Below are positions 3,716 through 24,345 of a stretch of DNA of 64,000 nucleotides, piece after piece. Source of the DNA: Deltaproteobacteria bacterium RIFOXYD12_FULL_56_24 (GTDB taxonomy: Bacteria; Desulfobacterota; Desulfobulbia; Desulfobulbales; Desulfurivibrionaceae). Below the pieces are notes generated by a model. That model made no database searches and was not told the DNA's origin. It was given only the letters and a program-made list of their open reading frames with translations. Made by a program: the position numbers and the translations under genes. How positions within the stretch are numbered: position 1 is the stretch's first letter; each line of letters starts with the position of its first letter. The stretch lies in assembly GCA_001799285.1 (NCBI GenBank), contig MGTD01000012.1, forward strand, positions 1-64,000. The letters run 5' to 3'.

Positions 3716-3920
3716 GTATCTTTCAGGGAAAAAACCGGATAAACCCCATTTCCCCAGCAGGACGTTGAAATTCCACCGGCATTTTCACGCTGCGGAAACC
3801 AATCCCGTCAAGCGCCGGCCATGGGCGGCGGCCAGAAAGTGTGCGACAATTTGCCGCATTGTCGCCTCTCCCACTATGTAGTACATGTGCGGGCATCAGC
3901 TTCAAGCCGATAATAAAACG

Positions 3921-4075
3921 GTAATAACTATCCAGCAGCACCCCATCTTGCGGCGATCGGCCCGGCTCGCGTACAAAAGTACGCTTCGCCGTCCCGCTTA
4001 CCGCAACCTGGGGCACTGCTGAATAGTTACGCTTCGGTGGTTATAGGCATTTCCGGCATTGAGCTGGATAGTTAC
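3921..4075. repeat. Palindromic repeat family A, copy 2 (hybrid core)
   Basis: The ends are family A (GTAATAACTATCC and GGATAGTTAC). The core is the family B core instead: CATCTTGCGGCGATCGG, then GTACAAAAGTACG, then CCGTCCCGCTTACCGC. The stretch 3469-4343 holds copies 1-3 of this family and the hcy promoter. I see no convincing gene in it. Confidence 0.85.
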
Positions 4076-20571: not shown

Positions 20572-20724
20572 GTAACGGATCACGGGGTATGCCCAAGAGG
20601 CCAAATAACCACGGAATAAGCGGTCACAGGGTGCCGCAGGTTGCGGCAAGCGGGACGGCGATGCGTACTGTTGTACGTGAGCCGGGCCGATCGCCGCAAG
20701 ATGTGGTGCCCTGTGACCGCTTAC
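20572..20724. repeat. Palindromic repeat family B, copy 1
   Basis: The ends are GTAACGGATCAC and GTGACCGCTTAC. The core contains CGGTCACAGGGTGCCGCAGG, TTGCGGCAAGCGGGACGGCG, the dyad GTACTGTTGTACG and ATCGCCGCAAGATGTGG. It fills most of the space between nagZ (start) and queC (end). Confidence 0.88.
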
Positions 20725-20739
20725 CTTTGTTGTGCATGC

Positions 20740-21432
20740 TCACTGATACTCCACCGGATCAACCCGCCCGGCCTCGGCAAAGCCCTTGAGCCGCAAGAGA
20801 CAACTGTCGCAGGCCCCGCAGGCCCGGCCCTTTTGGTCCGGGTCATAACAGCTGTGGGTCAGGCCGTAATCAACGCCGAGTTCGAACCCCTTTTCGATGA
20901 TCTCCCTCTTGGTCATCTTGAGGAGCGGGGCATGGACCCGGAAACGTGTTTCCCCTTCCACCCCTGTCCTGGTGGCCAGATTGGCCATCCGCTCAAAGGC
21001 CTCGAGAAATTCCGGGCGGCAGTCGGGATAGCCGCTGTAATCCATGACATTGACTCCGAGAAAAACATCGCCCGCGCCCAGCACCTCGGCCCAGGCCATG
21101 GCGTAGGACAAAAAAATGGTGTTGCGGCCCGGCACATAGGTAATGGGAATGGTTGCGTTCATCTCCGCCAGACTGCGGCCCTTGGGCACGGCGGTATCGG
21201 TGGTCAGAGCCGAGCCGCCGATGGCGTCGAGATCAAGGCGGAGAATGAGATGCTTTTTGATCCCCCGGCGGGCGACATTGGCCTTGGCCCGCTCCAGCTC
21301 CACCTGCTGCCGCTGGCCATAGGCAAAACTGAGGCAGCAGCACTCATAGCCCTCGGCCATAGCCATGGCCAGGACCGTAGCCGAATCAAGCCCGCCGCTC
21401 AAGAGCAGCACCGCTTTTGGTTTTTCCTGCAT
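20740..21432 (-). CDS. queC: 7-cyano-7-deazaguanine synthase QueC
   Basis: This 230-residue PP-loop ATPase converts carboxydeazaguanine to preQ0 in queuosine biosynthesis. The ATP motif is [11 protein letters not shown] (residues 9-19). The C-terminal zinc site is [19 protein letters not shown] with four cysteines. ATG 21432 follows GGGGGAG and puts the PP-loop at its normal place; the open frame extends to 21504 without conserved residues. No other queuosine gene is in the window. Confidence 0.95.
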
Positions 21433-21539: not shown

Positions 21540-21740
21540 TCCCCCGCCCATTGCAGCGGCGCAAGCCGCTGCGGGTGTTTCCCCCATTGTCACGCCGCCG
21601 AGTACCGGAGAGGCTGCCGAAAAGGGATTTGCACTGTTTGAGGCGCAGCCGAGTTTGCAAAGCCCCGGCAGCATCGAGGAACACAGGGCATCCCGCCCCC
21701 GGCGGGACAAGGGACAGGGTGCCCTTTCTTTGGTTCGTTT
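21540..21740. other. GC-rich non-coding segment with stacked hairpins, split by IS110
   Basis: The segment begins with a hairpin GCAGCGGC-GCAA-GCCGCTGC (21553-21572) and contains TCCCGCC-CCC-GGCGGGA near 21690. It ends in the left half of a long palindrome (CTTTCTTTGGTTCGTTTCT), whose right half resumes at 23402 after the IS element. Open frames here look spurious. I take it to be a structured intergenic element of unknown role. Confidence 0.5.
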
Positions 21741-21765
21741 CTTCTAAGTAACTACACTCTTTTAA

Positions 21766-23120
21766 TTACGATGCAACCAACTGAAATCCCAACATTTTTG
21801 CTTGATTCCTGATTCTTGATTCTAGGCGTTTTTTGTAAAGCTCTTCCTGATGTGCAAATACGGTTTCGTCAAACTGTTTCCCGGTCGTGACCAAATGGTA
21901 AATTATACGGGCCAGCTTGTGTGCCGTGGCTGTAATCGCCTTCGGCGCACCCAGCCTGGCGCGCATTCGTCTAAGATATTCACCAAGGTAGAATGACTGT
22001 TCCATAACCCCTCGGCAGCCATTCTCAAGGTCTGGGCCAATCTGTTAACGCTTTTACGGGTATGGGACGACAACACCTTGCCGCCGGTAACTTTATTGTT
22101 GGGACAGAGACAAAGCCACGAACAAAAATTGTCGGCTGTAGGGAACCTGGACATATCAGGGCCAACCTCGGCAAGAAAAACATGGGCGGTAATGACGTTG
22201 ATTCCATCGACCTGGGTCAGATCAGTGCCAAGAATTCGGTATAACTGGGAACGCAGATCGAAATCCGGCTCATTCCCTTGTGGTTTTTTACGTTTTGATG
22301 TTGGCGGCGGAGTCGGATTTTCTTCCGGATCAACACGCGAGTCAAGTGCGTTCAAATAACTTTCAATTTCATGATCACATCCACTGATCAGCTCTCGATA
22401 ATTACGGTATGCCTGGAGCGCTTGCTTAAGAGTAAAAAGGTGCTCTGGACGAAAGTCGCCCTCAAGCGATTTTTCGATAATCGATTTATCGGCCTTGATT
22501 CGCCGATCTTTCAAAGAAGCTAAATTTTGAGGGTTGCGTTCACCGGCTAGAATGGCATCAACAATAGCCATGCCGGTCAGGCCGGTAATATCGCTAATCA
22601 CGTGATGGAGTTGAACATTCATCTGAGTAAGGGCCTTCTGCATATGTTGGATATGAGCAGCGGACATTTTTACCAGGTTGTCCCGGTGTCGAAGCAGTGA
22701 ACGGACCGCACAGATTTCCTGGGCAGGACGAAATGATCCGGACAGCAGTCCGACAGAATGCAGATATTGCAACCATTGACAATCTTTGACATCAGTTTTA
22801 CGCCCAGGAACATTCTTGACATGGCGGGCATTAACCAGAACGATGTCAAAACCATAGGAATCAAGGATCTGATAAACGGGAATCCAATAAACACCTGTGG
22901 ATTCCATGGCAATTGATTCAATGCCGCACGACTTTAACCACTTGGCCGCTTTGTGCAAATCCTCGGTGAAGGTTTCGAATTTCCGGACAGAACGAGAATC
23001 CCGGTCATCTGGAACAGCGATATAGATTTCAGTGGAGCCGACATCTATACCGGCAGCATTTGCCTGAATAACATGCACCGCATTAACCCTTTTCTTTTTG
23101 TGACGACCTGGCTTCACCAT
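21766..23120 (-). pseudogene. IS110-family DEDD transposase, frameshifted
   Basis: The N-terminal RuvC-like domain keeps its acidic residues: Asp26 (AGIDVGST), Glu73 (AMESTGVYW), and Asp110 and Asp113 (GRKTDVKDC). The C-terminal domain is interrupted near 22002-22016. Frame one runs out into LWNSHSTLVNILDE, while the expected RRMRARLGAPKAITATAHKL continues in another frame to 21766, so one base is missing or added around the run of G. In addition, the segment CPNNKVTGGKV has Thr where related proteins have the catalytic Ser of an SGGK motif. ATG 23120 is preceded by TTGGAGGG. Both defects suggest an inactive copy, unless the frameshift is a sequencing error. Confidence 0.88.
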
Positions 23121-23401
23121 AAAACCCTCCAAGGAAGATGGTGGTGGCCGAATCGTGCTAAAATGGTATTCTTCTAAACGGGATAGAACACATATTGCGT
23201 ATAGTCTGCAAAAAGTGTTCTTCACCAATGACTAAGGTACGAGATCCGGGGTCACGCTTTGGGACGGGTTGCCAATAAAAATGGACCACACCAATAAACT
23301 ATCGACCTACTTCACACCACCGTTTTGAGGCATTTTACCCCGGAACCCGCGATTAAAAAAGTTACTTTGAAGACTGAAACCGCCCTCCCGTGGAAGTGCC
23401 G
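23121..23401 (-). ncRNA. Candidate IS110 bridge RNA region
   Basis: This 281-nt non-coding left end is where IS110-group elements encode their bridge RNA. Two 9-nt matches fit guide loops. CGCTTTGGG at 23255-23263 equals the left-end/target junction at 23400-23408. TTCTTCTAA at 23169-23177 equals the junction at the other end, 21739-21747. In transcript order the target-type guide comes first and the donor-type guide second, as in the IS621 bridge RNA. The RNA itself and its folding are inferred. Confidence 0.6.
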
Positions 23402-23462
23402 CTTTGGGCAAACAAAGAAATTAACAAACCCACTCTTGCCGACTCTTAATCTTGCAATCAAC

Positions 23463-24173: not shown

Positions 24174-24209
24174 CCGCTCCGCTTGTTGTCGGTTATAATT
24201 ACAATCGAC

Positions 24210-24345
24210 GTAAGCGCTCACAGGGCACCGCATCTTGCGGCGATCGGCCCGGCTCACGTACGTAAAAGTACGCGTCGCCGTCCCGCTTGCCGCTGTCAAT
24301 CGTCGGCAGAAGTGCCGACAATCTGCAGCACCCTGTGACCGCTTG
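24210..24345. repeat. Palindromic repeat family B, copy 2
   Basis: It begins GTAAGCGCTCACAGGG and ends CACCCTGTGACCGCTTG. An extra hairpin module, GTCAATCGTCGGCAG with AAGTGCCGACAATC, is inserted near 24293-24322. The rest of the gap to 24516 holds a small AT-rich dyad (AAGAATTTCTT and AAAGAAATTTTCT) and no gene. Confidence 0.85.

Follow-up and report, generated by a model that had tools for sequence, protein, structure and literature searches.

A putative bridge RNA with left guides on the 3' strands of its loops in the upstream end of an IS110-family element

We have analysed a 64,000-nucleotide stretch of DNA from Deltaproteobacteria bacterium RIFOXYD12_FULL_56_24 (contig MGTD01000012.1, positions 1–64,000; referred to here as the window), which carries an IS110-family element on its minus strand, and propose with considerable confidence that this element carries, in its upstream end, a bridge RNA in which a target loop is followed by a donor loop, with the left guides on the 3' strands of the loops and a shorter right target guide on a 5' strand. 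This proposal is based on sequence matches, a conserved fold and covariation, with transcription, binding and recombination carried over from published work on IS621, ISEc21 and IS1111 elements.

The element lies in a dispersed, palindromic repeat whose other copies in the genome are uninterrupted and serve as empty sites (..TTTGCTTGCCCAAAGAAACGAACC..), with seven of these near-identical over TTGCCCAAAGAAACGAACC. Comparison of the occupied and empty copies places the insertion point at CCCA-AAG-AAACG in the sense of the gene, with a three-base overlap or ambiguity, and because the empty copies fix the boundaries, the insertion point is known independently of the guides. Within this overlap we chose AG as the core (CT on the plus strand), a choice which is backed by the relatives described below.

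21743–23401, minus strand: IS110-family element, between two copies of the core, with ends ambiguous by up to 3 nt, defined by the empty sites of the repeat in its own genome.
21741–21742: core at the right end (CT on the plus strand), from the overlap with the empty sites and the alignment of the left donor and left target guides.
23402–23403: core at the left end (CT on the plus strand), from the overlap with the empty sites.

A first-pass annotation of the window had noticed two 9-mers within the 281-nt non-coding end which repeat the borders of the element, and these were found where it placed them: CGCTTTGGG at 23255 and 23400, and TTCTTCTAA at 21739 and 23169, with no other plus-strand site in the window (the reverse complements of both are absent from the plus strand of all 64,000 nt). 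Its view that two such matches are unlikely to be fortuitous was also sustained, as the 9-mers of both borders occurred together in none of 20,000 dinucleotide-preserving shuffles of the end. The target-like guide precedes the donor-like guide, and their spacing, 86 nt from start to start, agrees with the approximate 80 nt given earlier. Each 9-mer had been said to span the core and to match both sides of it; the core is indeed crossed, because each left guide runs two bases further, but the match is not an equal one, being mainly to one side plus the two bases beyond. In CCCAAAG+CG, five left-target bases are followed by the core and two element bases, and TTAGA+AG+AA comprises the left donor (the end of the element), the core and two right-target bases.

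23255–23264, minus strand: left target guide (LTG) with handshake bases, UCCCAA-AG-CG, matching CCCAAAG of the repeat and CG of the element, and covarying with the left flank and the element end.
23169–23178, minus strand: left donor guide (LDG) with handshake bases, UUUAGA-AG-AA, matching CTTAGAAG of the right end (the first pair is G-U), and covarying with the right end.

Protein searches yielded approximately 95 related IS110 elements from many phyla, to which extra genome searches added few more, and a homologous RNA was found upstream of the gene in nearly all of them. A covariance model constructed from 32 relatives, from which the window copy was excluded, identified the predicted RNA as its sole match in the genome (the next-best match in the window has an E of 0.17).

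23145–23310, minus strand: predicted bridge RNA, target loop then donor loop, recovered by this covariance model with 75.2 bits and an E of 1.6e-17.

The guides of these relatives change with their insertion sites. Amongst 28 non-redundant elements without A-runs, 21 have an LTG with at least 7 matching nt in their own left flank, compared with 3.4% when foreign flanks are swapped in, and the LDG 7-mer is present in the element's own right end in 89% of cases compared with 20% of swapped pairs. The LDG and the right end vary jointly across the relatives (CTTAGAAG, CTTGGAAG, CTTAGGAG, CTTAGTAG, CTCAGAAG and CTTAGGAA), and the LTG and LDG columns rank top in covariation scans. We interpret the 9-mers as target and donor guides because the relatives' guides match their own left flanks and right ends over those of swapped pairs. 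The first-pass annotation had asked whether the left ends of relatives co-vary with their insertion sites, and the pairing seen here, together with the conserved fold, agrees with its suggestion of bridge-RNA guides, one for the target and one for the donor, with the target loop first.

This fold was obtained from 63 distinct sequences, in which 95.3% of pair cells are paired and 16 of the 25 pairs include double changes. There are 299 double-change cells compared with 81 in shuffled alignments, and the covariation score is 0.509 compared with 0.18 for shuffles and no more than 0.098 for slid versions. Each loop is closed by a stem and has a 5' strand and, past an apical hairpin (UUGGUG..CCCG), a 3' strand of some 10 bases; in the family fold the two 9-mers are the 3' strands of the two loops.

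23304–23307, minus strand: 5' side of the target-loop closing stem, GGUC, with its partner GACC at 23250–23253 (helix 1, 99.4% paired with double changes; also in the lone fold of the window copy).
23243–23249, minus strand: 5' side of the donor-loop closing stem, CCGGAUC, with its partner GAUUCGG at 23148–23154 (helix 3, double changes in 5/5 pairs; also in the lone fold).
23315–23321, minus strand: 5' side of an outer stem, GGUGGUG, with its partner near 23140–23147 (from the near-relative consensus and the lone fold).

The right target guide was located when 3,335 antiparallel 4-mer diagonals were scanned without bias: the highest-ranking paired columns 66–69 with target positions -1 to +2 (z 6.8). 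Taken separately, the AG-core elements (P 0.004) and the AA-core elements (P 0.00005) both keep this signal, which also persists at 75% redundancy, and the right flank was not used in choosing the ends of the relatives. It should be noted that this guide is not visible in column-by-column covariation, and is seen with 4-mer diagonals which allow G-U pairs.

23294–23302, minus strand: 5' strand of the target loop, AUAGUUUAU, with the right target guide in it (GUUU, facing AAAC in the right target; best of the 3,335 family diagonals).

The first base of the core is A in the sense of the gene in 70 of 71 targets and in 71 of 71 donors. The two bases by which each left guide passes the core behave like handshake guides when the sequences are compared: in the LTG they track the first bases of the element (1.00 vs 0.89 expected for the first and 0.64 vs 0.27 for the second), and in the LDG they track the right target (0.56 vs 0.32, P 0.0004, and 0.47 vs 0.27, P 0.007). 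A reading of these two bases as a new bottom-strand handshake was dropped; in a mirrored frame they fall at the place of the IS621 handshake guides.

If the RNA works as proposed, the donor loop would use its 3' strand, UUUAGAAGAA, to pair with CTTAGA at the right end of the element, with the core after it and with the AA that opens the right target; the shorter right target guide would be provided by the 5' strand of the target loop, and the transposase with its bridge RNA would join the element, once circularised, to copies of the TTTGCCCAAAGAAACG repeat.

Other explanations of the two 9-mers can be weighed against this proposal. They could be the LTG and LDG of a canonical IS621 layout, placed on the 5' strands with the right guides further 3', and indeed the target loop precedes the donor loop and the left guides match the bottom strand as they do in IS621 (PMC11208160). 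We find this quite unlikely: the closing stem of the target loop joins bases just 3' of the LTG to bases upstream through the almost invariably paired helix 1, the apical hairpin is found on the 5' side of the LTG, and the diagonal scan gives no right-target signal 3' of the LTG and its best one 5'. The IS621 layout expected earlier within each loop was not borne out: the conserved fold has both left guides on 3' strands, and the diagonal scan assigns the right target guide to a 5' strand. It might also be suspected that the 9-mers are terminal repeats to which the transposase protein binds, rather than RNA guides, since a sub-terminal inverted repeat is conserved in the element as well and the donor-like 9-mer is element sequence; this is very improbable, however, because the host sequence matched by the target-like 9-mer is a different one in each relative and the 9-mer changes along with it, and because the conserved fold sets the two 9-mers in corresponding loops. 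Short words do recur, and single 9-mer matches appeared in about half a percent of the 20,000 shuffles (0.57% for the first border context and 0.40% for the second), but matches by chance in a 281-nt stretch are barely credible when no shuffle had both and dozens of relatives have matches at these same two positions. The guides might also be mere remnants in a decayed copy, never functional at the present site: the element is a single copy in the genome and its transposase gene is frameshifted. We regard such remnants as unlikely, as the RNA is intact according to the covariance model and the guides still fit both the occupied site and the empty copies, whilst the frameshift (near 21960–21985) may be a later event or an assembly error.

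A number of results count against a bridge RNA of the type we propose. Folded alone, the window copy is not unusually stable (z -1.43) and its minimum-energy structure pairs much of both guides weakly, although the outer stem and both closing stems are still reproduced. Folding had been suggested earlier as a check, and it is indecisive for a single copy because the lone fold pairs the guides weakly while the family fold keeps both 9-mers in loops. The right target guide of the window copy has only a 4-nt match (GUUU/AAAC) which is one base out of register and leaves the core G unpaired. Right-hand guides had not been seen by eye, and whereas covariation now places the one for the target, the right donor guide is still unplaced, with no diagonal in the family scan and none on the 5' strand of the donor loop. 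An Rfam scan returned no matching family, and a promoter and terminator scan was empty, with no sigma-70 promoter. Finally, the left target and left donor columns are circular in the relatives because guides were partly used to place their ends; this circularity spares the window copy, the swapped-pair test, the right-target signal and the two extra bases.

Our proposed RNA can be compared with several known systems. In IS621 each loop has its left guide 5' and its right guide 3', the handshake bases come directly after the right guides, and the core is CT with a nearly invariant T (PMC11208160, PMC11208158). The present family resembles IS621 in having a left-end RNA located upstream of the gene, two loops of which the target loop comes first, guides matching the target and the element end, left guides of 8–9 nt which include the core, two handshake bases beside a guide, and conserved DEDD residues. 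It differs in that its left guides occupy 3' strands and its right target guide signal a 5' strand, the long guides taking the place of the handshake-bearing right guides of IS621, and in having a core which is AG or AA in the sense of the gene (CT or TT on the other strand). When read on the opposite strand, the family has a short left guide 5', a long right guide 3' with two handshake bases after it, and a CT or TT core with an invariant T; because this gives the IS621 plan, the bridge RNA and gene appear to be inverted relative to the recombining ends. It is possible that the mirrored arrangement was drawn earlier amongst the six predicted structures figured in PMC11208160.

The seekRNAs of IS1111 elements, encoded downstream of the gene, have the top-strand complement before the bottom-strand match, and ISEc21 of the IS110 family, with its RNA upstream, has the reverse (PMC11187229). 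ISEc21 shares with the present family an RNA upstream of the gene and, in related elements here, insertion into IS3-family transposase genes, but its bottom-strand match is 5' of the top-strand match, and here this order is reversed. Like the IS1111 group (ISEc11, ISKpn4 and ISPa11; PMC11187229), our element has inverted repeats near its ends, and at the family level the top-strand complement is 5' of the bottom-strand match. However, the IS1111 RNA is downstream of the gene and the repeats are 7 and 3 bp from the ends, whereas here the RNA is upstream and the repeats are approximately 34 bp (left) and a few bp inside. The reverse complement of the right-end 5-mer sits 28–48 nt inside the element's own left end in 89% of relatives, compared with 61% of swapped pairs.

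23361–23367, minus strand: left copy of the sub-terminal inverted repeat, AAGTAAC.
21746–21752, minus strand: right copy of the sub-terminal inverted repeat, GTTACTT.

The 281-nt non-coding end, with its RNA model match upstream of the gene, conforms to the IS110 group, and the predicted RNAs of this family combine the IS110 RNA position with the IS1111 guide order. We lean slightly towards regarding this as a widespread third arrangement of bridge RNAs, in which the RNA and gene are inverted relative to the recombining ends and the long guide and handshake bases are on 3' strands. If so, RNA position and guide order would be separable traits which are not always coupled. The guides would also provide a readable code for a large and apparently uncharacterised set of IS110 recombinases and would allow the handshake idea to be tested directly in elements other than IS621, and a compact family in which one long guide per loop sets each half-site could yield programmable recombinases with other target rules.

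The gene itself satisfies the domain description of the IS110 family, with a DEDD RuvC-like domain and a Tnp_20 domain (PF01548 and PF02371) and a match to NF033542 above its cut-off. The window copy is frameshifted, and because of this it is probably no longer autonomous, unless the shift is an assembly error.

21904–23120, minus strand: IS110 transposase, first 405 codons in one frame (PF01548 6e-21, PF02371 3e-12, NF033542 1.5e-69).

The remainder of the Tnp_20 domain is in another frame, and the alignment of relatives to the window transposase ends at residue ~379. The four acidic DEDD residues are invariant in 28 relatives. A single-sequence search of PDB sequences with the transposase found no match, and it was a profile search that reached IS621 and ISCro4. 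The IS621 glycine which contacts the core T (PMC11208158) aligns with the conserved G of ESTG in the present family. In the motif ISGGK (A3), which is VTGGK in the window protein, the serine aligned to the catalytic S241 of IS621 is a threonine, as it also is in about 6 of the 28 relatives, some of them seemingly intact otherwise.

Many of the relatives with A-run guides (flanks L040, L041, L053, L060, L078, L080, L083 and L088) are inserted in codons for ERDILKK, and from this translated motif we read their flanks as IS3-family transposase genes, with one mobile element targeting another. Another relative, L039, has two RNA copies (2292–2422 and 3899–4027) on the same strand 1.6 kb apart, which suggests tandem elements. 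The dispersed target repeat (21600–21742 and 23402–23440 in the window; L002–L011) is about 150 bases or more in length, occurs at no fewer than 10 places in the genome and contains the palindrome TTTCTTTGCTTGCCCAAAGAAA; each of the seven near-exact target cores lies on the forward strand of its contig. ISPpu9 and ISPpu10, IS110 elements found in REP repeats, likewise insert at a single point of a dispersed palindromic repeat (PMC1525189, PMC8450116). Two reading frames on either side of the element, at approximately 20641–20760 on the plus strand and 24180–24299 on the minus strand, have the segment YVSRADRRKM.CPV.AY in common, which suggests a short DNA repeat flanking the element region.
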